Shown here piece by piece: positions 33,935 to 57,133 of a stretch of DNA of 64,000 bases. The number at the start of each line of letters is the position of its first letter. Positions within the stretch are counted from its first letter, which is position 1. Source of the DNA: Spongiibacter nanhainus (GTDB lineage Bacteria > Pseudomonadota > Gammaproteobacteria > Pseudomonadales > Spongiibacteraceae); contig NZ_CP066167.1 of the NCBI RefSeq assembly GCF_016132545.1, positions 3,346,001-3,410,000 on the forward strand, in the 5' to 3' direction. Under the pieces are notes generated by a model that saw only the letters and a list, made by a program, of their open reading frames with translations, was not told the DNA's origin and searched no databases. The translations under genes and the position numbers were made by a program.

Positions 33935-34432
33935 ATGAAAACCCTTTACTTGTTGCGGCACGCCAAATCCAGCTGGGACGATGAGTCTCTAGACGACGAA
34001 GACCGACCGTTAACCAAACGCGGCAAACGGGACTGCCAGCTGGTCTCTAACGAGCTGGCGCGCAGCGGCCGGAGCTTTAAGCAAGTGTTTTGCAGCAGCG
34101 CCCGCCGCACTCAGGATACCCTCAGGCGCTTCAAAGCCGAGTCATCGGTCTTCGACAGCAGCCAAATTACAGTCGACGAAGGCCTATATACCTTCGATAT
34201 GCAGACACTGCTGGACTGGCTAAAAAACCTCCCCCACGACATCGACCAGGCCCTCATCATCGGGCACAACCCCGCCTTGATTGACCTGGCCAACTTCCTC
34301 TACGACGGCAAGATCGGCCATTTCGGCACCTGCACCTTCGTCGAGCTGGAAGTGAACGTGGAATACTGGGATCAACTGCGATCAGACAGCGCCAAACTGA
34401 TCGAAATTGTCCGCCCCAAACAACTCCGCTAA
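33935..34432 (+). CDS. sixA: SixA-type phosphohistidine phosphatase
   Basis: 165 residues, histidine phosphatase superfamily. Catalytic LLRHAKSSWDD at the N-terminus (RHxK is the SixA form), RPLTKRGKRDC, and the second His in LIIGHNPALIDLANFL. In E. coli SixA dephosphorylates phosphohistidine proteins, notably NPr of the nitrogen PTS; the target here is inferred only. Starts 22 nt after smpB. A second, different histidine phosphatase is found at 53.1 kb. Confidence 0.88.
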   Translation: MKTLYLLRHAKSSWDDESLDDEDRPLTKRGKRDCQLVSNELARSGRSFKQVFCSSARRTQDTLRRFKAESSVFDSSQITVDEGLYTFDMQTLLDWLKNLPHDIDQALIIGHNPALIDLANFLYDGKIGHFGTCTFVELEVNVEYWDQLRSDSAKLIEIVRPKQLR

Positions 34433-35110: not shown

Positions 35111-37240
35111 TTACTTTTTCTTTTTACTGGCCTTGTCGTCTACCGTACTGCGAGGCCGGTAATCCAACTGTGGTAAGCGCGGCTTTTTACCGGTGCTGAG
35201 GTAGTCGTGGATGACGTGCTGAGAGCGTATCCGCGCCGTGCCAGGCTTGCGCTCCCGGAACATATTACTCTGGGTGGCGTCGATGATCCGCGCCTTGTCG
35301 TTATCCGCCCACTGTATATCGATGATGGTCTGAATCATCTTCTGGAGCTTTTTGTCGTAGATCGGACAGGTCACCTCGACTCTGTAATCGATGTTGCGGG
35401 TCATTAAATCTGCCGAGGAAATATAGTACTGGGGGTTGCCGCCATTGCGACCAATGTACACCCGGGGGTGCTCCAAAAAACCGTCGACGATACTAATCGC
35501 TTCGATGTTCTCACTTAAGCCCGGCAAGCCCGGCACCAGCGAACACATGCCGCGTACAATCAGCCGCACCGGCACGCCAGCCTGGCTGGCCTCATACAGT
35601 TTGTCGACAATTTCCCGGTCAACCAGGTTGTTGCATTTAAGAGTAAGACCACAGGTTTTGCCCTTGTTGGCAAAGTGGATTTCGTTGTCTATCAGCGCAA
35701 CCAGTCGCTCACGGCTGTTAAGCGGCGACACGGCCAAATGCTTGAACTCGTGACGCTTGTAGGTAAAGGCAATAAAGTCAAAAACCTTGGCGACCTCTTC
35801 GCCAATACCTTGATCGTAGGTAAAGAGGCTGAAGTCAGTATAGACCGAGGCGGTTTTCTCGTTGAAGTTACCGGTCCCCACGTGGGTGTAGTAACGCTGA
35901 ACGTTGTTCTCCTGGCGGGTTATCGAGATCAACTTGCTATGTACCTTGAGGCCCGGCACACCCAGGATCACATTCACCCCGCCATCAGTCAGGCGCTGGG
36001 ACAATTGAATGTTGGCTTCTTCATCAAAGCGCGCCTGAAGCTCGACCACTACCGTCACTTCTTTGTGGTTGGCTACGGCGTTGAGTAGCGCATCCACCAC
36101 GTGGGAGTTAGACGCTACCCGGTAGAGGCTGATTTTGATCTCTTTCACCGCCGGATCGATGGCTGCTGTTTTCAGGAAATCTGTCAGGTAGTCAAAGCTG
36201 TGGTAGGGATAGAACAGCAAAATATCCTGCTCACGCATACAGCTGAGAATGTTGGCGGCGGCGTTGATCTCTGCGCTGGGGATTTTCGGTAAGGCCTTCA
36301 TATCCAGATAGGCCGGCCCCAGGTTCGGGAACTTCATGAAATCTTTGGAGTTGTGATACCGCCCGCCGGGAATCATCGAGTCGAGTCGCCCCAGGCCCAG
36401 CCGGCGAACCAGGTAGTCCTGCAAGTCGTTGGGCATCTCGCTGTCGTAGACAAAACGCACCGGATCGCCTTTCTTGCGGCGCTTGAGGCTCTGAGCCATC
36501 TTTTCCACAAAGGTCTGGGTGACCTCCTCGCCCAGCTCTAGCTCCGCATCCCGGGTCAGCTTAATGGTATAGGCATCGGCGCTATCCAGCGGAAAAATAC
36601 CTCGGAACACCTCATTGAGGCAGACCCGGATAATGTTCTCCAGGGTAATCAATACCTTGGCTTTTTTACCTTTGCGCCCAGGTATGCGAATAAAACGATC
36701 AACCCGGGTAGTCGGGACCTCGAGCAGAGCAAAACGGGTTTGGTTCTCGTAGCTGAGGCGAATGGCCAGATAAATGGAGGCATCGTTCAGCTCCGGCATC
36801 GGGTTCGCGTCATCCAAAATGATTGGCACCAGCTCCTGCTGGATGTGGTTATGGAACACATCCTTTACGTAAGCGGTCTGCGCCTCGTCCAGCTGCTTCT
36901 CATTGATCACGTAGATTTTGCGACGAGCCAGTTCTTTGAGATTCTCCCGGTAGGTCGCATCAAAACGGCGCTGTAGCTTTAATACTGTCTGCCGAATCTC
37001 CTCCAGCAGTGCCTTGTACTCCTCCTGTTTGGAGGGCGTAGAGAAGGCTGCCAGGCGACGCACATCCGCCACTCTCACCCGAAAAAACTCATCCAGGTTA
37101 TTGGAGAAAATACCCAGATAACGAATGCGTTGAATCACAGGCACATCGGGGTCGGCAGCCTCCTGCAGAACACGCTCATTGAAGGATAACCAGCTTAGTT
37201 CTTTCGCTACCCAGGCCTGCTCGGCTATATGCTCTGTCAT
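35111..37240 (-). CDS. ppk1: Polyphosphate kinase 1
   Basis: Reversibly polymerises the ATP gamma-phosphate into polyphosphate. 709 residues with the four PPK1 domains: N (WVAKELSWLSFNERVLQEA), head, C1 and C2. Catalytic autophosphorylated His in VHSKLISITR region of C1 (about 437) and the conserved YYTHVGTGNFNEKTASVYTDFSL; second His in C2 RPxV/IGRNGGNPQYYISSADLMTRNID. Divergent from ppx with a 185-nt spacer containing a Pho-box-like palindrome. Tail is Lys-rich. Confidence 0.98.
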   Translation of the reverse strand: MTEHIAEQAWVAKELSWLSFNERVLQEAADPDVPVIQRIRYLGIFSNNLDEFFRVRVADVRRLAAFSTPSKQEEYKALLEEIRQTVLKLQRRFDATYRENLKELARRKIYVINEKQLDEAQTAYVKDVFHNHIQQELVPIILDDANPMPELNDASIYLAIRLSYENQTRFALLEVPTTRVDRFIRIPGRKGKKAKVLITLENIIRVCLNEVFRGIFPLDSADAYTIKLTRDAELELGEEVTQTFVEKMAQSLKRRKKGDPVRFVYDSEMPNDLQDYLVRRLGLGRLDSMIPGGRYHNSKDFMKFPNLGPAYLDMKALPKIPSAEINAAANILSCMREQDILLFYPYHSFDYLTDFLKTAAIDPAVKEIKISLYRVASNSHVVDALLNAVANHKEVTVVVELQARFDEEANIQLSQRLTDGGVNVILGVPGLKVHSKLISITRQENNVQRYYTHVGTGNFNEKTASVYTDFSLFTYDQGIGEEVAKVFDFIAFTYKRHEFKHLAVSPLNSRERLVALIDNEIHFANKGKTCGLTLKCNNLVDREIVDKLYEASQAGVPVRLIVRGMCSLVPGLPGLSENIEAISIVDGFLEHPRVYIGRNGGNPQYYISSADLMTRNIDYRVEVTCPIYDKKLQKMIQTIIDIQWADNDKARIIDATQSNMFRERKPGTARIRSQHVIHDYLSTGKKPRLPQLDYRPRSTVDDKASKKKK

Positions 37241-37425: not shown

Positions 37426-38946
37426 ATGGCACAGAACAGCGAGTCCTACGCCGCCCTCGACCTGGGCTCAAACAGCTTTCACTTGGTCATCGCCAGCTTT
37501 CACGAAGACAAGCTGCGCATTATTGACCGCCACAAGGATATGGTGCGCTTGGCCGCCGGCCTGGATGACGATGGCAAACTGAGTGAAGACGCCCAACAAC
37601 GCGCCCTGGATAGCCTGGCCAAAATCGCTAACCGTCTGGTGGATGTGCCGCCCCACCAAATTCGCGTGGTGGGTACCAACACCTTGCGCGCCGCCAGCAA
37701 CGCCACGGAGTTTATGCGCAAGGCCGAGTCCATCCTCGGCGCACCGATCAATATCATCTCCGGTACCGAAGAGGCCCGCCTGGTCTACCTCGGGGTTGCC
37801 AATGATCTATCCCCGGAGCAGCGCTCCCGCCTGGTTATCGATATTGGCGGTGGTTCCACCGAGCTGGTCGCCGGCAACCAGAACCCCAAACGGCTGGAAA
37901 GCCTGCCCATGGGCTGCGTCAGCTTTAGCATTCGCTTCTTCCCCAACGGCGAGATTAACGAAAAGAACTTCAAGCGTGCTGTCAGCGCCGCCCGGCAGCT
38001 GATCGCCCCCTATGTCGAGCAGTTTCGCGGCTACTGGGAAGAGGTTATTGGCTCCTCCGGCACCATACGCAGCGTCAGCAAAATCCTCGACCTACAACAG
38101 CTCTGCGATACCGGTCATGTCACCCGCGACGGAATGGAAACGCTGCGCAAGCAACTCCTCACTGCCAAGCACGTCAGCGAGCTCAATATCAAAGGCCTCA
38201 GTGACGAGCGGCGAGACGTCTTCCCCGGCGGCTTCTCGGTACTTTATGCCCTGTTTGAGGAAATGGGCTTCAATGCCTTGCACGTCTCTGGCTACGCGGT
38301 CAGAGAGGGCATCCTCTACGACCTGGCCGGTCGTTTTCGCCACCGGGACAAACGCGATGAGACCATACGTCAATTGGTCGCCCAATACGCTATCGATCAG
38401 GATCAAGGCGAGCGGGTGGCAGAATTGTGCCAACGCTGGCTGCCCGCCGTGGCCGAGCACCTGGTCACCCCCGCCGAAGAGGCTGAAGATTTACTGCGCT
38501 GGGCAGCGCAGCTACATGAGCTTGGGCTGGCCATCGCCCACGGCGGTTATCACAAACACGGCGCCTACATCCTTAGCAATGCCGATATGTCCGGCTTCTC
38601 CCGGCAGGAACAGGCTCGACTGAGCCTGTTGGTGCTCAACCACCGCCGCAAGCCCAAGACCACCGACACAGCCAGTTACGGCGTCGTCCCCGACTGGTTG
38701 CTGGTGTGCTTGCTACGCTTGGCCTGCATATTCTATCGCCGGCGCCAGGCCATCACCCTGCCGAATACCGTCACCCTCAGTTGCACCGCCCCAGACCAAT
38801 TGCAGCTCTCGCTACCTCAACAGTGGTACGACGCTAACCCCCTCACCGCCGCCGACCTCAGCGACGAAGCCGACCTACTGCAGAAATCACTGGGCATTAG
38901 CCTGGCTATCCAGTCGATAGACGATGACGCCGTAGCCAACGCTTGA
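37426..38946 (+). CDS. ppx: Exopolyphosphatase (Ppx/GppA family)
   Basis: Releases phosphate from the ends of polyphosphate; relatives hydrolyse pppGpp. 506 residues, typical of Ppx. Actin-like ATPase fold with YAALDLGSNSFHLVIA, SGTEEARLVYLGV, VIDIGGGSTELVAG (about 140-155) and the IGSSGTIRSV motif; the C-terminal HD-like domain (about 310-506; WAAQLHELGLAIAHGGYHKHGAYIL) is complete. Paired divergently with ppk1, so polymer synthesis and breakdown can be controlled from one spacer. Confidence 0.96.
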   Translation: MAQNSESYAALDLGSNSFHLVIASFHEDKLRIIDRHKDMVRLAAGLDDDGKLSEDAQQRALDSLAKIANRLVDVPPHQIRVVGTNTLRAASNATEFMRKAESILGAPINIISGTEEARLVYLGVANDLSPEQRSRLVIDIGGGSTELVAGNQNPKRLESLPMGCVSFSIRFFPNGEINEKNFKRAVSAARQLIAPYVEQFRGYWEEVIGSSGTIRSVSKILDLQQLCDTGHVTRDGMETLRKQLLTAKHVSELNIKGLSDERRDVFPGGFSVLYALFEEMGFNALHVSGYAVREGILYDLAGRFRHRDKRDETIRQLVAQYAIDQDQGERVAELCQRWLPAVAEHLVTPAEEAEDLLRWAAQLHELGLAIAHGGYHKHGAYILSNADMSGFSRQEQARLSLLVLNHRRKPKTTDTASYGVVPDWLLVCLLRLACIFYRRRQAITLPNTVTLSCTAPDQLQLSLPQQWYDANPLTAADLSDEADLLQKSLGISLAIQSIDDDAVANA

Positions 38947-45744: not shown

Positions 45745-46539
45745 CTAGCGGTTGTCCCCGTCGAGGAAGCGCCCCAGGCCACCCAGCACTGAACCCTCAC
45801 CTTTGTCATCGCCACCGGAAGACGGCGCGTGGGCAATAATGCGATCGGCCATGCGGGAAAACGGCAAGCTCTGTAGCCACACCGTGCCATGGCCTTTCAG
45901 TGAGGCCAAAAACAAGCCCTCACCGCCAAACACCATGGACTTCAAACCGCCGGCGCGCTGAATGTCGTAGTCGATACCTTCGGTAAAGCCCACCAGGCAG
46001 CCGGTATCCACCCGCAGGGTTTCACCGTTGAGTTTCTTCTCCACCACCGTGCCACCGGCCTGTATGAAGGCCATGCCGTCGCCTTCCAGCGATTGAAGAA
46101 TAAAGCCCTCACCACCAAAGAAGCCGCTGCCTAGGCGCTTGTTAAAGCTGATATCCACCTTAGTTCCCAGCGCCGCGCAGAGAAAGGCATCCTTCTGGCA
46201 GATAATTTTTTCGCCCAATGCCGCCATGTTCAGCGCCACGATATTGCCGGGATAGGGCGCCGCAAAGGCTACCCGTTTTTTGCCCTGGCCCTCGTTGGTA
46301 AAGTGGGTGGTGAACACCGACTCGCCGGTAAACATGCGCTTACCTGCTGAAAACAGCTTGCCAAACATGCCCTGATCGGGATCAGAACCGTCACCCATTT
46401 TGGCCTGAAAATTGATGCCCTCTTCCATGTAGGTCATTGCCCCCGCTTCAGCAATTACCGTCTCACCCGGGTCCAGCTCCACTTCCACCAGCTGCATTTC
46501 CGAACCGAGAATGTCGTAGTCCACCTCGTGACAACGCAT
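45745..46539 (-). CDS. AIM24/TIGR00266-family protein
   Basis: 264 residues. The family's beta-rich fold (tryptophan-RNA-binding attenuator-like) is recognised by [60 protein letters not shown] and [29 protein letters not shown]. Function is unknown in bacteria; the mitochondrial relative Aim24 affects inner membrane structure. Convergent with the slipin gene and 63 nt from the CofD-like gene, with a hairpin in between. Confidence 0.92.
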
Positions 46540-46602: not shown

Positions 46603-47796
46603 TCACACCAATGACATCAGCGCCGATACCAGTAACTCATTGTCGTAATAGGGCGCGCTGCGTTTACTGACTAGCTTGGTGTCTATGATTTCAATACCCA
46701 GCCGGCGAATATGATCCAGTGACAGGTCGCTGGGGTATTCGCCATTGCGGCTATCCAGCAGAATAAAATTTAACAACTGGTCAGTCGCGACAGTCTCGCC
46801 ACAGTCTCGCCGCAACAGTGCCAACAGCCGATCTATCGACAGCGCCAGGTCCATCCCGATTTGCTCGGGATCATAACCGAGGTTGGGAATGTAGATTTTG
46901 GGGTTGTGATTGTCTGCTATGGCCTTGCCCACCCCCGCCGGCATCAGGTTGGCCAGCAGGCTAGAATAAAAGCTACCGGGCGGATAGCAAATCAACTCGG
47001 CAGCGGCAATGAGTTTGCGATTTTTCTTGCGCAGCGCCGTGGTGGTTTCTTGCCAGGATTCCAACTCACTGGACAACACCATGGTCTCCACCGCCGAGGT
47101 CAATGGCGGCTGTTCTTTGCCAGTAAGGCGATGCTGGCCGATCAAACGGCTGCCGTCTTCTAACTCCGCCGCCAAGTGCAGGTTCTCGTCGACGATTGCC
47201 CGCACCGTGCCCTGCACATTGATCAGTTTGGAAAACAGAAAGATGATCGGGTCCAGCTCCCGGTGGTTGTTAAGATAGCCCCCGGTCAAAATCAGGTTGC
47301 CGATACTGGCGCCGCGCAGATCGAAATCCTCGGGCATGGCGTCGATAAAATAGCCCAGCAGATTACAAATCAAGCGGCGCATGGGGTTGGCGATCTCAGC
47401 AACGCGACGAGATTTTCCCCGGGCCATTTTCTCCAGCTCGCTCCTCAACTCGGCCTGACTGGCTTTGCTGGGCAGGCGGTAGTGAAACAGCTCGTAAATT
47501 TCCGGATGCCCCAGCACGGTCTCGTCGGCCAGTGCCATCAGCCGGCTGCGTAAGTCACCGATGGAGGGCATGGCAAAGGCCCGCCGCAACTCCGCTGAAC
47601 TGCCCCCGGAGTCAAAAGCAGTCACCAAGTGAATGGAATTGTGAGTGTAATTCTTGAGGGTTTTACACAGCGTGTTTAAGGCCGAGCCACCGCTAAAGAA
47701 CAGGATTCTCGGCCCTAACTCCGGGTTTTTATGGTAGCGGCTGATGCGCAGTGGATCGGGAATATCGGCACTGCGACTGACGCGAATCTGGGCCAT
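46603..47796 (-). CDS. CofD/YvcK-like protein of the GAK system
   Basis: 397 residues. CofD (2-phospho-L-lactate transferase)/YvcK fold: nucleotide-binding ILFFSGGSALNTLCKTL (about 30-46), LVTAFDSGGSSAELRRAFAMPSIGDLRSRL (about 58-88), LILTGGYL and CYPPGSFYSSLLANLMPAGVGKAIADNHNPKIYIPNLG. The length and the DSGGSSAELRR...PSIGDLR motif fit a YvcK-like binding site. Its presence next to the ATP-grasp/HprK genes at 51-53 kb identifies it as the CofD-related member of GAK loci (recalled as TIGR04357; not searched). True substrate unknown; no F420 pathway is visible here. Confidence 0.85.
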   Translation of the reverse strand: MAQIRVSRSADIPDPLRISRYHKNPELGPRILFFSGGSALNTLCKTLKNYTHNSIHLVTAFDSGGSSAELRRAFAMPSIGDLRSRLMALADETVLGHPEIYELFHYRLPSKASQAELRSELEKMARGKSRRVAEIANPMRRLICNLLGYFIDAMPEDFDLRGASIGNLILTGGYLNNHRELDPIIFLFSKLINVQGTVRAIVDENLHLAAELEDGSRLIGQHRLTGKEQPPLTSAVETMVLSSELESWQETTTALRKKNRKLIAAAELICYPPGSFYSSLLANLMPAGVGKAIADNHNPKIYIPNLGYDPEQIGMDLALSIDRLLALLRRDCGETVATDQLLNFILLDSRNGEYPSDLSLDHIRRLGIEIIDTKLVSKRSAPYYDNELLVSALMSLV

Positions 47797-47872
47797 GGGG
47801 ACTCAAGTTAGAATGGAGCGCCGGGATAATCCAACGTAGAAGAAAGGGGGCGGCGCAGCGCCCCGTTTCAGA

Positions 47873-48736
47873 TTATTTACCAAACAGCTTATTGAAGGCC
47901 TTATCCAAGGCCTTGTCGACGACGTTGTCGGTCTGTTGGTCCACTTCAGCATCGGTGCGCTCTTCAACACGGTCTTGTTGACGCTCCGCCTTTTGGCCAA
48001 ACAGTTTACCCAGGCTGAATCCACCACCGGCACTGGCCTCGGCGCCATCGGCAGAGGCACCGGCTTCGGCATTGGCACTACCGCTAAAAATATTACCCAT
48101 ATTGGGCATCGTGGTCGGTTCCGCAGGTAACTCAAAGCGGCTTTTGCTGACATTCTCGTCACTGATACTGACAACCTTCATTTCGTTGCCAAAACGCAAG
48201 TAGCCCTTGTCTTTTTCTCTGAGGGCATTGAACACCGCATCCACTTGGCTGGCATCTTTTCCAGAGGCCTTCAACATGGTTTTTGAGAAACCCATCATCG
48301 CGTCACGCAGCTCAATAACGCGCTTGTCGCCTGACAGCACCACTTCGTCGGTTTTTTCACGGCCTTTGTGGTCAGTGTAAGTTACCATCCACACCCGGCC
48401 ACGGATTCCGGCAACAGTTTCGTGACGGCCCGTTTTTTCCATCGATTTAATGGCGGTTGCCTGGGGGCCAGAATCTGGAACCATGCCACTGAACATCTTC
48501 ATGGTGGCGCCAGCATCAATCACCATACCGTCGGTGACCATGTACAGCTTGTCATCCCGCTGCAGCATATAACCCTGTTGCCCCTCGCTGGACATGCGCA
48601 GGTAGTTATCGCCGCGATACTCTACTGTGCTGACCTGATTACCGTTTTGCATCTGCACGACACCGGCTAGCGCGCTGCCGGCCATCCCGATAGCCAGGCC
48701 CGCACCGGCAAGCCACTTCATCGTAGGTGAATTCAT
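47873..48736 (-). CDS. Exported protein, possibly DUF4412-like
   Basis: 287 residues from MNSPTMKWLAGAG at 48736, chosen because GGAGAGGAAA precedes it and a proper signal peptide follows (cleavage near GSALA). Residues 25-200 contain GVVQMQNGNQVSTVEYRGDNYLRM, KLYMVTDGMVIDAG and GRHETVAGIRGRVWMVTYTDHKGREKT, which resemble DUF4412-type periplasmic domains. The C-terminus is an Ala/Glu/Ser low-complexity region followed by an amphipathic helix (DKALDKAFNKLFGK). Function unknown. Same strand as the CofD-like gene (76-nt gap), divergent from the NUDIX gene. Confidence 0.6.
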   Translation of the reverse strand: MNSPTMKWLAGAGLAIGMAGSALAGVVQMQNGNQVSTVEYRGDNYLRMSSEGQQGYMLQRDDKLYMVTDGMVIDAGATMKMFSGMVPDSGPQATAIKSMEKTGRHETVAGIRGRVWMVTYTDHKGREKTDEVVLSGDKRVIELRDAMMGFSKTMLKASGKDASQVDAVFNALREKDKGYLRFGNEMKVVSISDENVSKSRFELPAEPTTMPNMGNIFSGSANAEAGASADGAEASAGGGFSLGKLFGQKAERQQDRVEERTDAEVDQQTDNVVDKALDKAFNKLFGK

Positions 48737-48929
48737 TTTCCTCTCCCTTGGAATTAGCTGTATAACTCTGGTATTTGTTGTTGGCAGTGGTACCCGCGAC
48801 CGTTCATCCACTGCGGGTGACCGTAATGTAACCACCACAGCCGGCTAATACCAGACTCTGTAACAGACTTTTTCCGCCAAATTCGTCAAACTAATGGATC
48901 GTCACCCTACATCAAGAATCCGGCTTTAA

Positions 48930-49412
48930 ATGAGTGAGCTGTCCCCCCCAATTCGTAACGCCGCCCGCGCCCTGATCGTGCGCAATCAATCCGTGCTTGC
49001 CCTGCGCAAAACCGAGGGTCGCTACGCACTGCCTGGCGGTGGCCAGGCCCCCGGCGAGAACCTTCACCAGGCATTGCAGCGCGAGTGCCGCGAGGAGATA
49101 GGCTGCCAAGTCAGCATCGACACTCTGCTGACCGTGGCCGACTATCTCAAACCCCGCAATAGTAAACCCGGTTACCACCGCCATGTGGTGGAATTCCTGT
49201 TTCTCTGCCGCGTCGATGATGACTATCAAGCCCACAACGGCCCCAAGCCGGATAAGCGGCAACTGGATGTGGAATGGCTGTGTTTGGACAAGGTGTCCGA
49301 GGTCGACCTCTCGCCGGGCTTTCTCAAAGCCGTACTGCCACACTATCGCCGCTACCAACACCAGGAGGCCACCTATTTGGGCCAGTTTGACGACACCGAG
49401 GGCGCCACGTGA
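48930..49412 (+). CDS. NUDIX hydrolase
   Basis: 160 residues. The Nudix box GGGQAPGENLHQALQRECREEIG (about residues 36-58) fits GX5EX7REUXEEXGU. N-terminal ARALIVRNQSVLALRKTEGRYALPG is the usual entry strand; the His-rich loop GYHRHVVEFLFLCRV follows. Likely hydrolyses a nucleoside diphosphate linked to another moiety. First gene of the plus-strand cluster; the next gene overlaps by 4 nt (its GTG start within the Nudix stop). No ideal promoter was recognised upstream. Confidence 0.9.
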   Translation: MSELSPPIRNAARALIVRNQSVLALRKTEGRYALPGGGQAPGENLHQALQRECREEIGCQVSIDTLLTVADYLKPRNSKPGYHRHVVEFLFLCRVDDDYQAHNGPKPDKRQLDVEWLCLDKVSEVDLSPGFLKAVLPHYRRYQHQEATYLGQFDDTEGAT

Positions 49413-51058
49413 TCAGGGTAGCCAAGGGTATTCGCGACAACCTGCGTTTTCTGTGCGTGGAGGTGGATTCTCAACTGGAGAACCTGCAGTCCTATTTCGA
49501 CGATCCGAGCCGTGCCCTGGCGCGGCGGATCTTTGACCGCGCCGGTTACGTTTACAACCTCAAAGCCCGCATCCACGACGGTACACTGCGGCAGCTGTGG
49601 GAGCACAAAGACAGCGATAGCGTCACCATCATCCTGCGCAGCATAGAGTTTATTGCCACAGAGCTGGAGCGCATTGCCGAGTTGTGCCGGGAGTGCGTCA
49701 AACAGGCCCAGCACATCGACGAGTTCAGTTTGTTAAAACCGGCCGCCTACGGCGATATGCTGCAACAGGTGCGCGATGGCATCGCTTATTTGGGGCCCGC
49801 CATTGCCGACAACGACAGCAAGCTGGCACTGGAGATTGGCAAGATCGAAAGCCGCCTGGACCGGCACTACAACAAATTGCTTAAGCGTTATATCAGTGGC
49901 CTGAAAGAGAAAAAAGAAAAACACACCGAAGATTTGGCCACGGCCCTATTCATTGCTCACAACGTAGAACAGATGGGCGATGCGCTGCTCACTATCAGTG
50001 AGTCCATTATCTCCGCCAACCTCGGTCAACCGGTTAACCTGGAGAGTTTCCAAGCCCTCCAGGCCTCGGTAAAAAAACTGGAAAAGGACGAAGCCCTTGA
50101 GGAGATGCAGGTTCGCGCTATTGCCGAGACCCGTTCAGGCAGCGCCATCTCCGCCATCAGCTATGGCGACGGCGATGACGACGACTATTTAGCCATCTAC
50201 AAAGAGGGCCAAAAGCGCAAACTCAAGGAAGAGCGACAGAGCGTGGAAAGCTGGCACGAAATCTACCCGGGCCTGGCACCCAAAATCCTGTCGTACAAAA
50301 AGCGGGGCCAATCCGCCTCCCTGCTGATCGAGCACTTGCCCGGGATGACCTTTGAACAGATTCTGCTCAGCGCCCCCGACGATCTGCTTGCCGAGACCCT
50401 GCAGCAACTCGGCGAGACACTGCAGTCAGTGTGGCGTGAAACCCGCACTGACGAACCGGTTAAGTCGGGCTTTATGCGCCAACTCAACAAGCGGCTCAAT
50501 GAGGTTTACAAGGTGCACCCGGAGTTCGATCTCAGCGACTGCCAAATGTGCGGTTTTGACGTCGCCTCCTTCGACAGCTTGCTGGCGGCAGTCGCAGACT
50601 ATGAGCAGTCTGTAAAAGCGCCCTTCTCGGTCTATATTCACGGCGACTTCAACGTCGACAATATCATCTACGACCCGATGGAAAAGCGCATCAATTTCAT
50701 TGATTTACACCGCTCTCGCTACATGGATTACGTCCAGGACGTCTCGGTGTTTATGGTATCCAACTACCGCCTGCAAATTCTGGATAGCGCCACCCGGCGG
50801 CGCATCAATGAGGTGGCCCGAGAGTTTTACCGCCTCGCGCTCAGCTTTGCCCGCGAAACTGACGACCGCAGCTTTGACCTGCGCCTGGCTCTGGGACTGG
50901 CCCGCAGCTTTGCCAGTTCAACCCGCTTCATCCTCGACAAAAGCCACGCCCGCCGCATGTTTCTGCGGGCCCGCTACCTGATGGAAAAAGTATTGGCGAC
51001 ACCAAAGGACCAAATCTACACTTTTGAGTTGCCGGTAGAGGAGATTTTCAGTGCCTGA
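49409..51058 (+). CDS. PhoU-like domain fused to an aminoglycoside-phosphotransferase-type kinase
   Basis: 549 residues from a GTG. Residues about 1-235 are all-helical with PhoU-like repeats (IFDRAGYVYNLKARIHDG, LERIAELCRECVKQAQHIDEF, ALFIAHNVEQMGDALLTISESII). An acidic linker (GDGDDDDY) leads to a kinase-like domain (about 275-545) with Brenner motif IHGDFNVDNIIYD (about 409-420) and INFIDLHRSRYMD, the expected catalytic Asp and metal Asp. Predicted to phosphorylate a small molecule, with the PhoU part sensing or binding a phosphate system. Overlaps its neighbours on both sides (4 and 8 nt). Substrate unknown. Confidence 0.85.
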   Translation: MIRVAKGIRDNLRFLCVEVDSQLENLQSYFDDPSRALARRIFDRAGYVYNLKARIHDGTLRQLWEHKDSDSVTIILRSIEFIATELERIAELCRECVKQAQHIDEFSLLKPAAYGDMLQQVRDGIAYLGPAIADNDSKLALEIGKIESRLDRHYNKLLKRYISGLKEKKEKHTEDLATALFIAHNVEQMGDALLTISESIISANLGQPVNLESFQALQASVKKLEKDEALEEMQVRAIAETRSGSAISAISYGDGDDDDYLAIYKEGQKRKLKEERQSVESWHEIYPGLAPKILSYKKRGQSASLLIEHLPGMTFEQILLSAPDDLLAETLQQLGETLQSVWRETRTDEPVKSGFMRQLNKRLNEVYKVHPEFDLSDCQMCGFDVASFDSLLAAVADYEQSVKAPFSVYIHGDFNVDNIIYDPMEKRINFIDLHRSRYMDYVQDVSVFMVSNYRLQILDSATRRRINEVAREFYRLALSFARETDDRSFDLRLALGLARSFASSTRFILDKSHARRMFLRARYLMEKVLATPKDQIYTFELPVEEIFSA

Positions 51059-51971
51059 CAGACACAGCAAGCCCCCCAGAATCGCGGTGGTGGGCATTCC
51101 CGGCAAGTGGTCCACCGAGGTACTGGCCGACGCGCTGGAGGCCCGCACCGGCTTCCGCGCTGTGGTGGACATGGCCGAGGTGTCCCTGGACCTGAGCCGG
51201 GGTGCGCTGATTTGTAGCCCCCCCGGCTACGGAGAACTGAATCTCTGTGACCTGGACGGCATCATCGTCAAGAAAATCTCCGCCCAGTACAGCCCCAACA
51301 CCCTGGACCGCCTGGCCCTGCTGCGCACGGCCGAGCAGGCCGGTGTGCGGGTGTTTAGCCCGGTGGCCAGCATGGAAGGGCTGGTGAACAGATTGCATTG
51401 CACACTGGCCCTACAGCACGCCGCCATTCCCATGCCTGAGACCTTCATTACCGAGAGTATCGACGCGGCGCTGGACGCGGTGACCCGCTTTGGCGGCGCG
51501 GTATTTAAACCCCTGTTTTCCACCAAGGCCAGAGGCATGCTGTTGCTGGACAGCAGCGATGACCCCACCGCGCTTCGTAATACGATTGAAACATTCCGGT
51601 CGGACAATCCCCTGATGTACATCCAGCGCAAGGTCGAGCTCCCAGGCCGGGATCTTGGCATGGTGTTTTTAGGCGGCCGCTATCTCGGCACCTACGCCCG
51701 GGTCAATCAAGGCGACAGCTGGAATACCACGATCAACAGCGGCGGGCGTTACGCCGAGGTTCAGCCCGACCCGGCGCTGATAGAGCTGGGGCAACGGGCA
51801 CAGGCGCCCTTCAACATGGATTTCACCACGGTGGATATCGCGGAAACCGACTGCGGCCCCATAGTTTTTGAAGTCTCGGCCTTTGGCGGCTTTCGCGGCG
51901 CCCTTGAAGGGGCCGGCGTCGACGCCGCCGCCCACTACGCCGACTACGCACTAGAGCAACTTACGCGGTAA
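51051..51971 (+). CDS. ATP-grasp enzyme of the GAK system
   Basis: 306 residues from a GTG. RimK-like ATP-grasp: IAVVGIPGKWSTEVLADALEARTG, GGAVFKPLFSTKARGMLLL (ATP-binding), VELPGRDLGMVFLGGRYLGTYARVNQGDSWNTTINSGG (acceptor/metal region) and IVFEVSAFGGFRGALEGAG. ATP-grasp ligases join a carboxylate to an amine or thiol via an acyl-phosphate; which substrate is unknown. Recalled as TIGR04356-like (GAK ATP-grasp). Starts 8 nt inside the previous gene, so strictly coupled; HprK-like gene follows 14 nt later. Confidence 0.88.
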   Translation: MPDRHSKPPRIAVVGIPGKWSTEVLADALEARTGFRAVVDMAEVSLDLSRGALICSPPGYGELNLCDLDGIIVKKISAQYSPNTLDRLALLRTAEQAGVRVFSPVASMEGLVNRLHCTLALQHAAIPMPETFITESIDAALDAVTRFGGAVFKPLFSTKARGMLLLDSSDDPTALRNTIETFRSDNPLMYIQRKVELPGRDLGMVFLGGRYLGTYARVNQGDSWNTTINSGGRYAEVQPDPALIELGQRAQAPFNMDFTTVDIAETDCGPIVFEVSAFGGFRGALEGAGVDAAAHYADYALEQLTR

Positions 51972-51985
51972 ACCTTAAGGACAGC

Positions 51986-53092
51986 ATGAAGCCCAGCAGC
52001 GACGACATCAGCAAACAGTTACTGGCCGACTACCCGCTGACCGGCACGCCGCTGACGCTGCGCCTGGGAGACCAACTGTTGGCACTGCACACCAACTCCC
52101 CCGCGCTGCTAACCACCATCGCCAACTACTTTTCTCATATCGTCGTTCACACCAAGACCCAACAAGCCGATATTGAAGTGATCGCCATCGACGGCCCCAA
52201 CCCCACTCTGGACTTAACATTTCAAGACTGGCCACGGGAACAGGGTAAACATGGGCGCAAGGATGCCGTCATCGATCTGGACGGCGGCCGACTGGTCCAC
52301 AAAGTACGCACGGGGGTGATGTTTTTGCAGCGCCAGCGGCGCCCCATTGCGGCGGGGGCGCTGAGCAGCCACCCCAACCAGTTGATCAACTTCATCAACT
52401 CCCAGCACATGAACCACCTGCAGCAGCGGGGTTGGCTGATCTGCCATGCTGCCGGTCTAACTGCGGGTGACCACGGCCTGGCTATTGCGGGTTTTTCCGG
52501 CGGCGGAAAATCCACCCTGTTGCTGCATCTGATGGAGGCCGAACACGCCTGTTACGTCACCAATGACAGGTTGTTCGTTCGTCAACAGGGAGACGGTGTG
52601 GCAATGACCGGGATTCCCAAGTTGCCCCGCATCAATCCGGGCACCATTGTGCACAACCCGCGTCTGCGCAAACTGCTAAGTCAGTGCGAACTCGACCACC
52701 TGCAATCGCTTCCAAAGGCCGAGCTATGGCATCTGGAACAGAAATACGACGCCCACATCAACGACTTGTACGGGCCGCAGCGCATTGTTGAGGGCGGCAA
52801 GCTGCAAGACCTGATTATTCTTAACTGGAGCCACGATCGGGAAGAGGGCACTGAACTCAAGGCAGTGTCGCTATCGGAACGGCGCGAGCTGTTGCACGCC
52901 ATCATGAAGTCCCCCGGCCCCTTTTATCAAAATCGGCAAGGCGAATTTCTGACTGGCCGGGAGCAACCCAAACCCCCCGACTACCTGGCCGCGCTGGAAG
53001 GCGTCCAAGTGTGGGAGTTAACCGGCGGTATCGACTTTGATCAGGCGGTCGCCGCCGTACATCGCAACATCCTTGCATCATGCCACGCCTAA
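51986..53092 (+). CDS. HprK-related kinase of the GAK system
   Basis: 368 residues. C-terminal HPr-kinase-like domain: P-loop GFSGGGKST at 169-177, followed by ACYVTNDRLFV (the HprK-like DD/ND-R strand). The N-terminal 150 residues carry LLRLGDQLLALHTNSPALLTTIANYF, matching the HprK-related kinase B family (recalled TIGR04355). HprK phosphorylates serine of HPr; no hpr gene is visible here, so the substrate is probably another protein or small molecule. Overlaps the phosphatase gene by 13 nt. Confidence 0.87.
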   Translation: MKPSSDDISKQLLADYPLTGTPLTLRLGDQLLALHTNSPALLTTIANYFSHIVVHTKTQQADIEVIAIDGPNPTLDLTFQDWPREQGKHGRKDAVIDLDGGRLVHKVRTGVMFLQRQRRPIAAGALSSHPNQLINFINSQHMNHLQQRGWLICHAAGLTAGDHGLAIAGFSGGGKSTLLLHLMEAEHACYVTNDRLFVRQQGDGVAMTGIPKLPRINPGTIVHNPRLRKLLSQCELDHLQSLPKAELWHLEQKYDAHINDLYGPQRIVEGGKLQDLIILNWSHDREEGTELKAVSLSERRELLHAIMKSPGPFYQNRQGEFLTGREQPKPPDYLAALEGVQVWELTGGIDFDQAVAAVHRNILASCHA

Positions 53093-53763
53093 TCGTCGCC
53101 CTGATCCGCCACGGCGATTATCAACAGCGCCCCGATACCCCTAGCGCCCACCAACCCTTTCCGCTAAGCCCCCTGGGTGAGCAACAAGCCCGTCAGGCGG
53201 GCGTTGAGATTGCCGAATTTGCTGCCGATCTCGGTTTGACGCTGTGCCCCAGCCTCGATTGTTCCAGCTTGCTGCGCGCCTGGCAGACCGCACACATACT
53301 GGCTGACTCGCTCCCCGGCAATACGGACTACACCCTGCACAGCACCATGGCCTTGGCTGAACGCAGTGTCGGAATCGCCGCCAACCTGACTACTGCCGAC
53401 ATCGAGTCGCTGTTGGCGCAGGACCCCCGTTGCGATACGCCGCCGGAAAACTGGAAGTCCAACAGCCACTACTGCCTGCCCCTCCCTGGGGCGGAATCGC
53501 TGATGACCGCCGGCCAGCGGGTGGCTCAACACCTTCGACAGCGCACGGCTGAACCGGTGGCCACCGACACCCTCAAGGTATTTGTCGGCCACGGCGCCGC
53601 CCTGCGCCACGCCGCCTTTCACCTCGGTGTTCTCAGCGAGGCGCAAATCCCCCAACTGAGTATGTTTCACGCGCGGCCAATATATCTGGAGAAAACCGAG
53701 CGGGGCTGGCAACATATCGCCGGTGATTGGAAGCAACGGGGTGGCGAGGCGTACAACGACTAA
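53080..53763 (+). CDS. Histidine phosphatase family protein in the GAK cluster
   Basis: 227 residues. Catalytic LIRHGDYQQ (RHG), CSSLLRAWQTAHILADSL and the second-His motif VGHGAALRHAAFHLG of the histidine phosphatase superfamily. Longer than SixA. Coupled to the HprK-like kinase by a 13-nt overlap, so it may reverse that kinase's product (inference). It ends the first transcription unit; 164 nt separate it from the next gene. Confidence 0.9.
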   Translation: MPRLIVALIRHGDYQQRPDTPSAHQPFPLSPLGEQQARQAGVEIAEFAADLGLTLCPSLDCSSLLRAWQTAHILADSLPGNTDYTLHSTMALAERSVGIAANLTTADIESLLAQDPRCDTPPENWKSNSHYCLPLPGAESLMTAGQRVAQHLRQRTAEPVATDTLKVFVGHGAALRHAAFHLGVLSEAQIPQLSMFHARPIYLEKTERGWQHIAGDWKQRGGEAYND

Positions 53764-53858
53764 GCCGCCGCTAAGCAAGCGCCAAACAAGACTAAGCAAG
53801 CAAAACGGCGCGACGTTTCTCCCGCTAAGGTGCTCCCTATGTCAACACGCGCTTGACG

Positions 53859-53892
53859 CTGTCACTAAACTGCAACAGCAATGCAATATAAC
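53859..53892 (+). promoter_or_regulatory. PhoB-type promoter (Pho box + -10)
   Basis: CTGTCAC-TAAA-CTGCAAC (53859-53876) is a 7-4-7 direct repeat matching 12 of 14 positions of the PhoB consensus halves, with an AT-rich spacer. Exactly 10 bp later is TATAAC (53887-53892), the spacing expected for PhoB-activated promoters. Predicted start near 53899, 29 nt before the metallophosphatase ATG. Confidence 0.75.
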
Positions 53893-53927
53893 GTGACAAA
53901 ACACCGCGATCGGATAGAGGTCCGCTC

Positions 53928-55295
53928 ATGACACAACTCACCAGCGCACTTCCCAACTGGCAGCTGCCGGTGGCCGGGCCCGCCGGTGAGTGGGCCGATG
54001 ACCAGCTGCCGCTGCGCACTGAGACCTGGCTGCTGGGCAAGCCCAACCACAGCGACGATGAAACCCAGCGGGTGCAGGAACTGCGGGAAGCCGTGCAACG
54101 GGCCGCCTCCCACCAGCCCTGGCAGTGGCCCAAGCGCCGCACCCTGTTTATCTCTGACCCCCACGCCGATGCTGATGCCTTTGTCGCCTCACTGCGGGCC
54201 GCCGGCGCCATTAGCCCTGGCAAAGACCACAGCAAAAAGAAAAAGACTCTCGCCACCACCTTCAAATTAAACCGCGCCGGCCGCCGGGCGCGCTTTATCA
54301 TCGGTGGAGACTGCCTGGACAAGGGCCCCAGCAATTTAAGCCTACTGCGCAGTCTGAAACACCTGATCGATACCGGTGCCGACGTCAAACTGCTGGCCGG
54401 CAACCACGATATGCGACTGCTGGTGGGCTTGCGCTCTCTGGACGAGGAGCCCAATGCGCTGACTGAACACCTGTTCGTGCGCATGAGCCCCAAGGCGATG
54501 CCCTTGTTACAGGAGGTCTATGAGGAATATGTCGCCCACCGGCCCAAGGCCCTCAAAGGCATCCCCGATGAGGCCGAGTGCCGGCGCCGACTGCTGCCCC
54601 GAGCCAGTTGGTACAAGGCGTTTCCCAAGCAGGCCGCCGGCTTGCTGTCCGAAGAGGCTCTGACGCGGGAGGTGGTGCGCCTCCACAAAAAAGCCAGCCA
54701 TTTTGAAAAACACTGCCACGACGCCGGTATGGGGATGCGGGAGGTGTATGCCACGGCCAAGGCCTGCCAACGGCTGTTCCTTCACCCCAAGGGCGAGTTC
54801 TTCTGGTTTTTTGACAGTATGAAACTGGCCCACAAGTCCGGTTCGTTTCTGTTCGTCCACGCGGGCCTGGACGACAGTATTGCAGCACTGATTGCCGAAA
54901 AAGGTATTGGCTGCCTGAACAAGCTCTATCGCAAACAGATTCGCAAAGACTTGTTCACCTTCTACTACGGCACCGTGGCCAACACCATGCGCACCAAATA
55001 CCGCAACGTGGATATGCCGCTGAGTGACATTGGCGTGGCAAGAGTGCATCGCAAAGGCATTCACGCAGTGGTGCACGGCCACCGCAATCGCCACGATGGG
55101 CAGCGCCTTATGCTTCGTCAGGGGCTGCTACACGTCGAAGGTGACACCACGCTGGACCGCCACTCCCGTCACAAAGAGGGACTTAGCGGCATCGGCGCCG
55201 CGGTCACGGTCATTGAGCCCAGTGGCCGGGTCATCGGCATCAGTAACGACTACCCCTTCGCCAAAGTCTTCGAACCTGGGGAATATCTTCGCTGA
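53928..55295 (+). CDS. Metallophosphatase (calcineurin-like), GAK cluster
   Basis: 455 residues. Binuclear-metal motifs in order: LFISDPHADADAF (D-x-H), IIGGDCLDKGPSN (GD-x-x-DKG), LLAGNHDMRLL (GNHD), LFVHAGLDDSI and AVVHGHRNRH (GHR). Fold class as in PPP-type and class III FBPase-like phosphatases; substrate unknown, cytoplasmic (no signal peptide). It has its own PhoB-type promoter, AGAGG at 7 nt, and is followed 56 nt later by the amphi-Trp gene. Confidence 0.88.
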   Translation: MTQLTSALPNWQLPVAGPAGEWADDQLPLRTETWLLGKPNHSDDETQRVQELREAVQRAASHQPWQWPKRRTLFISDPHADADAFVASLRAAGAISPGKDHSKKKKTLATTFKLNRAGRRARFIIGGDCLDKGPSNLSLLRSLKHLIDTGADVKLLAGNHDMRLLVGLRSLDEEPNALTEHLFVRMSPKAMPLLQEVYEEYVAHRPKALKGIPDEAECRRRLLPRASWYKAFPKQAAGLLSEEALTREVVRLHKKASHFEKHCHDAGMGMREVYATAKACQRLFLHPKGEFFWFFDSMKLAHKSGSFLFVHAGLDDSIAALIAEKGIGCLNKLYRKQIRKDLFTFYYGTVANTMRTKYRNVDMPLSDIGVARVHRKGIHAVVHGHRNRHDGQRLMLRQGLLHVEGDTTLDRHSRHKEGLSGIGAAVTVIEPSGRVIGISNDYPFAKVFEPGEYLR

Positions 55296-55351
55296 CCGGC
55301 GTCGCGCTATAATAAGCGTACCGAAGTTCAACACAGCCATAGCGACGCAAC

Positions 55352-55624
55352 ATGCGACAGCCCAAAACAACCTTCCGCCACGATTCTCTCCAGGATCGCG
55401 AGACCATTCAGGAGTTCCTCAACGCGCTGATCAAGGGCCTGGACAAGGGCGAGCTACTGTTCAGCGATGAAGATGGCAAAATTGAGATGCACCCCGAGGG
55501 CCTGCTCAATCTCAAGGTCACGGCCAGCCAGGACGATAACCGACATCGGGTGGACGTGCGCATCAGCTGGCAGGTCGCCGGCGACACTGAGCACAAGTCC
55601 ATTGTCAAGGTTAACGGCGACTAG
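55352..55624 (+). CDS. Amphi-Trp domain protein
   Basis: 90 residues. KTTFRHDSLQDRETIQEFLNALIKGLDKGELLFSDEDGKIEMHPEGLLNLKV then DVRISWQV: an amphipathic pattern and a single Trp (RISW) typical of the small amphi-Trp family (recalled TIGR04354), which accompanies GAK loci. Possibly a carrier or target of the kinases; no enzymatic motif. Convergent with the purple acid phosphatase gene (21 nt gap). Confidence 0.8.
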   Translation: MRQPKTTFRHDSLQDRETIQEFLNALIKGLDKGELLFSDEDGKIEMHPEGLLNLKVTASQDDNRHRVDVRISWQVAGDTEHKSIVKVNGD

Positions 55625-55645: not shown

Positions 55646-57133
55646 CTAACCGCAGTGTTCCAGGGCATGTTTGTTGCGGGCCACAGTATGGGCGGCAATT
55701 GCCGGATAATCCTTTAGCAGTTCATGGGACGAGCGCGCCGGTTGAGCGCACTGTAAACAGGCCACCGACTCTTTGGCGGTGATCTCAAAACTATCCCGCA
55801 GTGCAAACTGGCCATCACTCAAGCGGCGCCCCTCTTCACTCATATCCATCGGCTCAGCGCCGTAGTATTCCACCGCGATCTTGCCCGGGCTGACCAAGTA
55901 CTTGGCAAAACCGATACCCACAAAGGTGCTCGCCGACCAGCGCTGAGGACCATTGTCATCAAAGATACGAATCGATGCGCCACCGGTGCCCACCATCACC
56001 TGGACATAGCCCAGGGGATTCGGCAAACCAAAGGCCATCGGCACGGAGCGCTGGTAGACGTGATCGTGACCCACCAACAGCAAATCGACGCCGTAGCGAA
56101 CGATAATGTTCTCCTCCAGCGCCACCAGGGTGGGATTGGCCGGGCTGCGCCCGTCCTGATCTGTCCAGATCGTGAAATGCTGCATCACCACGATGAAATC
56201 GATCTCTCCACGCAGCCGGCGCAGGGCGGCCTGGGCCAGGTCCGCCTCGATATTGAGAATCTCCTCAATCAGGGTGCCATCGTTAATTAAGGCCCCGGCG
56301 GTGGTCACCAGAAAGTGCACCCGGTTGTAGTCAAAGGAATAGTAGGAGCTGCCCGGGCTGCCGGTACCCAGCAGATCCCCCAAGGGTTTGCCGGGGTGGG
56401 TAAAGCGATTTTTAAAGGTATCGCCGCCAAAATCTTTTTGCTCGTGATTGCCCGGCGCGGTCATGGTGATGCGCTGACTCATCAGCGGCTGCATCTGATC
56501 AAACCACAGGTCCCAGATCGGCTGATCGCCATTGGCGTAGGACAAGTCCCCCGCCAGCAACAGCAGATCTGAGGGTGTGCGCATAACGGCATCGGTCACC
56601 ATTTGCGCTAGCTCGCCCACGCCGTGGTCGCCAAAGTGAATAAAACTCCACTGCTCCGCTGGCGACGGGGGCACCACATAGACTGACGACCAGCCCCCCT
56701 CATCAGACCCCACCCGGTAACGAAGGGGCCGCTCAGGATCAATGCCAGTGACGGTGGCCCGGTGGGTAAAGGCCTCCACCCCTGGGGTGGCATCAGTGCT
56801 GGCCTCCACGGTATGGGCAAAGACTTTAAACGCGATATCGTCAGCGCTCATCGTCTCCTCCACCACGTCCCACTCCAGCCGCGACGCGGGCGCATCCACG
56901 CCATCGGTGAACCAGGTCAGGCTACGGCTGCTGCGACTGTCTTCACCCAGGCTAACGTGCAGGCCTCGAGGCATCATCGGGCCCGGTTCGCTGCTATCTG
57001 GCAGCGGGTTGCCAGTGGGGTTGCCATTCCCAGAAGAAGCCCCGGTCGAGCCACCACCACAGGCACTCAACATAAGGGTCGCTGCGGACCCCGCCAAAAA
57101 CCGACGGCGGGTAAAGGGGAAAGACTGGGACAT
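55646..57133 (-). CDS. Purple acid phosphatase-like lipoprotein (Tat substrate)
   Basis: 495 residues. Tat motif TRRRFLAGSA plus lipobox LSAC (Cys about 25) predict an exported lipoprotein. N-terminal fibronectin-like domain (about 55-155), then a metallophosphatase domain with FGDHG, LLAGDLSYANG (GD-x-x-Y), APGNHEQ, VVMQHF and LVGHDHVYQRS, the full purple acid phosphatase metal set. Releases phosphate from external organic phosphate (inference). Six Cys at the end, including a CLQC pair, are unusual. Convergent with the GAK cluster. Confidence 0.9.
   Translation of the reverse strand: MSQSFPFTRRRFLAGSAATLMLSACGGGSTGASSGNGNPTGNPLPDSSEPGPMMPRGLHVSLGEDSRSSRSLTWFTDGVDAPASRLEWDVVEETMSADDIAFKVFAHTVEASTDATPGVEAFTHRATVTGIDPERPLRYRVGSDEGGWSSVYVVPPSPAEQWSFIHFGDHGVGELAQMVTDAVMRTPSDLLLLAGDLSYANGDQPIWDLWFDQMQPLMSQRITMTAPGNHEQKDFGGDTFKNRFTHPGKPLGDLLGTGSPGSSYYSFDYNRVHFLVTTAGALINDGTLIEEILNIEADLAQAALRRLRGEIDFIVVMQHFTIWTDQDGRSPANPTLVALEENIIVRYGVDLLLVGHDHVYQRSVPMAFGLPNPLGYVQVMVGTGGASIRIFDDNGPQRWSASTFVGIGFAKYLVSPGKIAVEYYGAEPMDMSEEGRRLSDGQFALRDSFEITAKESVACLQCAQPARSSHELLKDYPAIAAHTVARNKHALEHCG

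Follow-up and report, generated by a model that had tools for sequence, protein, structure and literature searches.

The conserved GAK operon of Spongiibacter nanhainus and its possible link to polyphosphate

The GAK Locus in the Analyzed Window

The window analyzed here, a 64,000-nt stretch of the Spongiibacter nanhainus genome (assembly GCF_016132545.1, contig NZ_CP066167.1, positions 3,346,001 to 3,410,000), contains a locus of the GAK type, which is catalogued in NCBIfam yet functionally blank as far as the literature found. Its genes, with the letters used for them below and with coordinates counted from the start of the window, are as follows.

46603-47796, minus strand: C, GAK-type protein resembling CofD and YvcK, optional, divergently transcribed (TIGR04357, TIGR01826)
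48930-49412, plus strand: N, small NUDIX hydrolase, frequent but optional (PF00293, 57 bits)
49409-51058, plus strand: P, PhoU domain and APH-type kinase in one protein, core (PF01895 and PF01636)
51051-51971, plus strand: G, GAK ATP-grasp enzyme, RimK/LysX/MptN-like, core (TIGR04356)
51986-53092, plus strand: K, HprK-related kinase B with a predicted PEP-carboxykinase-like fold, core (TIGR04355, structure model)
53080-53763, plus strand: H, histidine phosphatase, core (PF00300, His_Phos_1, 63 bits)
53928-55295, plus strand: M, calcineurin-type metallophosphatase, core (PF00149, Metallophos)
55352-55624, plus strand: T, amphi-Trp protein with an N-terminal F-x-H-x-S motif, core (TIGR04354, Pfam Amphi-Trp)

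A further letter, X, denotes a fusion of SixA and NUDIX domains found at other GAK loci. All four NCBIfam GAK families, TIGR04354 to TIGR04357, are represented above their cut-offs and co-located in the window: C scores 551 bits against the GAK CofD-like model TIGR04357 (cut-off 340), G 429 bits against the GAK ATP-grasp model TIGR04356 (cut-off 300), K 349 bits against the HprK-related kinase B model TIGR04355 (cut-off 200), and T 67 bits against the amphi-Trp model TIGR04354 (cut-off 31). Many weak TIGR04355 matches in the genome sample are generic P-loop matches and were disregarded. An earlier note on this DNA, made from the sequence and its open reading frames (ORFs), had assigned these four proteins to a GAK locus, and the placement by hidden Markov models bears it out; Pfam likewise identifies the NUDIX, PhoU plus APH, His_Phos_1, and Metallophos domains in the proteins described there as lying among them. 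For the XXXCH-domain protein TIGR04358, presumably also GAK-associated, no match was obtained in the S. nanhainus genome, in a search in which the control was also silent.

The plus-strand genes are tightly coupled, as the note had proposed: the ORF coordinates give overlaps of exactly 4 nt between N and P, 8 nt between P and G, and 13 nt between K and H, and a gap of 14 nt between G and K. Its statement that no function has been published is in line with the open-access full text, where none was found for the GAK names and nothing was found on the PhoU-APH fusion or in a search on HprK/PEPCK.

Conservation and Composition of the Operon

Two independent surveys describe the operon in other genomes, one anchored on K and covering 80 loci from named genomes (81 with the window), the other anchored on G and covering 12 loci from a phylum sample. 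The K-anchored loci contain P in 73 cases, G in 73, H in 69, M in 66, T in 65, N in 54, and C in 35, part of the missing genes being due to contig ends. In the G-anchored loci P, K, and M are present in 12 of 12, and H and T in 11 of 12. The co-localization expected of a GAK locus in other genomes is found in both surveys. Both tests by which the note could have been refuted, placement in the GAK families and co-localization, left it standing. The conserved core is P-G-K-H-M-T, and C, N, and X are frequent extra members. These counts reverse two emphases of the earlier note: the kinase and phosphatases that it took to be added to the locus belong to the core (P, H, and M in 66 to 73 of the 81 K-anchored and in 11 or 12 of the 12 G-anchored loci), and the CofD-like gene that it listed among the core parts is optional. 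The four NCBIfam GAK models leave out P, H, M, and X, though these are core or frequent members of the loci.

The commonest gene order is C reversed, followed by N, P, G, K, X, H, M, and T; smaller layouts also occur, for example T, P, G, K in L138 (loci are numbered with L). Of 92 loci, 48 have a P/G overlap of exactly 8 nt. In the sample of 274 gammaproteobacteria nine genomes are positive, and eight of these have both the ATP-grasp enzyme and the kinase (Fisher p = 1e-14). Because this overlap recurs and the two genes co-occur, the locus is not a product of chance, and we conclude with very high confidence that the GAK operon is genuine and widely conserved in bacteria. It is carried by a minority of the sampled genomes, G being found in 9 of 274 gammaproteobacteria and in 14 of 398 genomes of the phylum (about 3–4% of the sample). 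The divergence of the five enzymes is correlated (r 0.69–0.84), a correlation that shared ancestry alone would also yield.

An additional NUDIX protein of about 187 residues is encoded in L045, L050, L053, L057, L089, L090, and L097 (also in L069 and L072); its gene mostly overlaps K or lies no more than 50 nt upstream of K, at loci where K stands apart from G.

Three other genes of the window lie within or beside the locus.

47873-48838, minus strand: extra ORF that probably encodes a signal peptide, located between C and N, without a family match
45745-46539, minus strand: AIM24/TIGR00266 protein, directly downstream of C on the same strand
55646-57133, minus strand: purple-acid-phosphatase-like protein with a Tat-like leader, convergent with the amphi-Trp gene

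The extra ORF has no NCBIfam or Pfam family and no homologue among the GAK loci searched, and was set outside the GAK system. No homologue of the AIM24/TIGR00266 protein or of the purple-acid-phosphatase-like protein adjoins GAK in the other loci.

Catalytic Motifs and the CofD-like and ATP-grasp Proteins

The GAK enzymes look active, judging by catalytic motifs that are invariant, or nearly so, among their relatives. In H, residues R10, H11, R66, E94, and H171 are invariant in 69 sequences, and in M, D77, H79, D128, N159, H311, and H385 are conserved at 100%. The Nudix box of N is intact and conserved; HGDxxxxN and D432 are invariant in P; the P-loop, H154, and D194 are invariant or nearly so in K.

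The ATP-grasp enzyme G belongs to the same fold family as the RimK, LysX, ArgX, and MptN ligases and has most of their motifs; its second-best NCBIfam match after its own family is MptN (134 bits). It differs from LysX, ArgX, and similar enzymes, as seen in the alignment to them, in one of the E-x-N metal ligands expected of RimK-type ligases: Ser276 replaces the Asn in 99% of GAK members, and E274 is kept. The protein C contains a CofD domain (PF01933, 129.6 bits), but among NCBIfam models it matches only TIGR04357 and the YvcK model TIGR01826, and not the CofD equivalog of F420 synthesis. The nearest solved structures in the PDB are the UPF0052/YvcK-type proteins, which bind UDP-GlcNAc; C nevertheless stays below the YvcK cut-off (123 against 196 bits) and is far stronger in its own family.

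The CofD domain and the similarity of G to MptN are what would be expected if the operon synthesized a small molecule carrying a phosphodiester and a tail of amino acids, much as CofD and an alpha-glutamate ligase act in building the side chains of F420 and tetrahydromethanopterin. We consider such a pathway quite unlikely. Most loci lack C, which is in any case nearer to YvcK than to true CofD, G lacks the metal-binding Asn, and clustering of the neighbours of GAK loci revealed no additional conserved biosynthetic or export genes.

Predicted Fold of the Kinase

The description of K as HprK-like in the earlier note agrees with TIGR04355 but overlooked a second resemblance. The structure predicted for K (mean predicted local distance difference test score, pLDDT, 95.5) has a fold like that of PEP carboxykinase (PEPCK) over the whole chain: in a fold search the model aligned with PEPCK over 303 residues, K 2-366 (Z 17.2, root-mean-square deviation (rmsd) 4.1), and with HPr kinase/phosphorylase (HprK/P) over 141 residues of the P-loop half, K 148-368 (Z 14.7, rmsd 2.7). 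In this model K appears to share the P-loop kinase domain fold with HprK/P. The P-loop and His154 of K line up with PEPCK, whereas the lysine pair of the PEPCK metal site corresponds, when matched by eye, to Asn131-Gln132. At the sequence level K scores 14.5 bits against the PEPCK model (cut-off 369), the profile alignment of the two covers only 42 columns, and a search of the K profile against the PDB returned P-loop noise only.

The SixA-NUDIX Partner and Its Loss

Between K and H, most GAK loci contain X, a SixA-type phosphatase of about 323 residues fused to a NUDIX domain and near full length in 61 loci. The earlier note, correct on the membership of the locus, overlooked this conserved partner, the clade of the window being without it. 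The NUDIX domain of X best matches DIPP-type enzymes (diphosphoinositol polyphosphate phosphohydrolases; DIPP1, E 3.5e-13). Residues S213, K222, E238, E241, and E242, which comprise a Ser loop and the Nudix glutamates, are invariant in 10 sequences. Yeast DDP1 binds phosphates with a Ser loop and the lysine of a PKG motif, and its substrates are inositol pyrophosphates (PP-InsPs), dinucleotides, and polyphosphate (PMC8064635); X retains a similar Ser loop and PKG lysine. In L035 (2188-3621, plus strand) a single ORF seemingly unites K with the NUDIX end of X; the same assembly also splits G and P, and the fusion may be an artefact.

DIPP-type enzymes cleave dinucleoside polyphosphates (ApnA) as well (PMC8064635), which brings in a reading of the operon as nucleotide house-cleaning or ApnA alarmone metabolism, where N, the DIPP-type NUDIX, and an ApaH-like metallophosphatase would clear unusual nucleotides made under stress. 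ApaH is indeed among the solved structures closest to the M profile, at a weak score (E 7e-4), and N is present in 54 of 81 loci. Two kinases, a ligase, the amphi-Trp protein, and the CHAD genes described below are left unexplained, however, and we regard this reading as unlikely, if a little less so than a biosynthetic pathway.

The S. nanhainus genome encodes no SixA-NUDIX fusion; the best matches are a SixA-like gene in the window and a weaker partial one elsewhere. The former, a stand-alone SixA-like phosphatase at 33935-34432 on the plus strand, scores 60.5 bits, under the SixA cut-off of 74.5. In the genus, C is present in 7 of 18 genomes, that of the window included, and the other six loci contain C, P, G, K, H, M, and T and are without N and X. 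A tree of five enzymes groups the window with these six loci and with a Spongiibacter locus (L037), and X was seen in no locus of this clade. Because the whole clade is without it at the locus, X was probably lost in a single lineage event. The SixA-like protein and N may stand in for it in this clade. The K protein of the window is 45–47% identical to those of the same genus and up to 56% identical to those of other lineages, which suggested a separate horizontal acquisition; the grouping in the five-enzyme tree speaks against it.

Patchy occurrence in the genus would also suit an anti-phage or conflict system, as would the two K copies of one genome. This genome (G153) has them on two contigs (L071, L072), with a CHAD gene adjoining one. 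PADLOC, in turn, matches only the NUDIX protein (37 bits) and, marginally, T (14.8 bits), and the genes keep their arrangement from one class to another; a defence role is the least likely of the explanations considered, and very improbable.

Polyphosphate-related Neighbours

The neighbourhood of GAK in other genomes, which the note that recognized the locus had overlooked, contains CHAD and PPK1 genes. Of 92 loci, 13 have CHAD nearby, in seven cases no more than 1 kb from a GAK gene; the frequency of CHAD in the class and an assumed 3.5-Mb genome would predict about 0.09 such loci. These neighbourhoods span about seven lineages and include gammaproteobacteria, an alphaproteobacterium (L103), Rhodopirellula/Planctomycetes (L081, L105), and other proteobacteria (L156, L158). 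Pfam bears out the CHAD assignment of six proteins among the neighbours, where CHAD ties with CBS as the commonest family. At the genome level, CHAD is found in eight of nine GAK genomes and in 79 of 265 others (p = 5e-4, relatedness ignored). CHAD proteins bind polyphosphate granules, and in Acidithiobacillus the CHAD genes cluster with ppk and parA (PMC10892726). In L068 (3191-5505, minus strand) a ParA-like ATPase gene adjoins the CHAD gene beside GAK, an arrangement that recalls the Acidithiobacillus folD-ppk-parA-CHAD group.

In L086, and likewise in L051, L069, and L073, which are related, PPK1 is found at a distance of 2–5 kb from GAK. The window itself contains two genes for the metabolism of polyphosphate, a polymer that stores phosphate.

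35111-37240, minus strand: PPK1 (TIGR03705, 768 bits), about 9 kb from GAK
37426-38946, plus strand: exopolyphosphatase/GppA-type protein (PPX), about 8 kb from GAK

The Amphi-Trp Protein and a Possible Phospho-switch

All 62 GAK amphi-Trp proteins compared have the residues F8, H10, and S12 of T, and this F-x-H-x-S motif lies in an N-terminal coil of the structure model, which comprises one helix and four strands (pLDDT 87). The model has no match among PDB folds at E <= 0.001 (Z at most 2.7), which is no proof of a new fold, and a sequence profile search gave no credible match. In 87% of the aligned GAK proteins the C-terminal 12 residues are basic on balance; the tail of T in the window is not. 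Amphi-Trp proteins also occur without K, in 16 of 274 gammaproteobacterial genomes, with scores lower than those of the GAK type. All eight stand-alone proteins examined lack the F-x-H-x-S motif, and the neighbours of these eight loci show no obvious recurrence.

Such a motif could be the target of a protein phospho-switch, in which K would phosphorylate Ser12, or K and P would act on His10, with H, X, or M reversing the modification and G modifying T further; polyphosphate would then be incidental. The P-loop half that K has in common with HprK/P fits such a switch, as does the membership of SixA in a phosphohistidine phosphatase family. Against this, K matches a small-molecule enzyme, PEPCK, over more residues than HprK/P, invariance of the T motif may mean binding instead of modification, and the DIPP-type NUDIX and the CHAD neighbours are left unexplained. 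Among the alternatives we give the phospho-switch the most weight, while still holding it to be unlikely.

Functional Interpretation and Comparison with Known Systems

Tentatively, we prefer the possibility that GAK runs a cycle in which a phosphorylated or pyrophosphorylated species is made and removed again, in step with polyphosphate or phosphate status. The PhoU domain belongs to a phosphate-signalling family. P would sense phosphate through this domain and, together with K, would install phosphate; G would form an amide-type link, as in the attachment of an amino acid; the removal of phosphate or the cleavage of phosphate anhydrides would fall to H, M, and X or N; and T, by way of the His/Ser motif at its N terminus, would be the receptor or the substrate. 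The polyphosphate lead is drawn from the CHAD enrichment, the nearby PPK1, the DIPP-like NUDIX of X, and the PhoU domain. We have moderate confidence in a link to polyphosphate or pyrophosphate, as a supported inference, and low confidence in the proposed chemistry. The broader proposal of the earlier note, that a single metabolite or protein modification is synthesized, phosphorylated, and turned over, is reasonable but unproven.

Several observations weigh against a polyphosphate-coupled cycle. In genomes of the same genus PPK1 is far from GAK, so that the proximity of PPK1 and PPX in the window may be due to chance. No CHAD gene is in view in 79 of 92 loci, and CHAD co-occurrence may reflect lineage; because related lineages are counted among the CHAD and PPK1 cases, Poisson values make the evidence look stronger than it is. 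The most telling partner, X, is absent from the locus in the window. The glutamate-ligase-like G and the CofD-like C have no obvious job in polyphosphate chemistry. Even so, the defined core, the SixA-NUDIX partner, and the tie to CHAD narrow GAK to a small mutant set and a few assays, namely of polyphosphate, ApnA, and pyrophosphorylated species.

A bolder version, which we consider distinctly improbable, makes GAK a prokaryotic counterpart of eukaryotic inositol-pyrophosphate signalling, with a dedicated messenger of phosphate status. By this analogy, G, P, and K with its PEPCK fold would make the messenger, the histidine phosphatases and the DIPP-type NUDIX would erase it, the amphi-Trp protein would read it, and CHAD proteins would tie it to polyphosphate granules. 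The two systems differ in that the eukaryotic ATP-grasp enzyme is a kinase, whereas G resembles an amino-acid ligase, and in that no inositol enzyme is found among the conserved GAK neighbours. What they would have in common is a set of enzyme classes: the ATP-grasp kinase, histidine phosphatase, and DIPP NUDIX of eukaryotic inositol-pyrophosphate and polyphosphate turnover have apparent counterparts that are encoded side by side in GAK loci.

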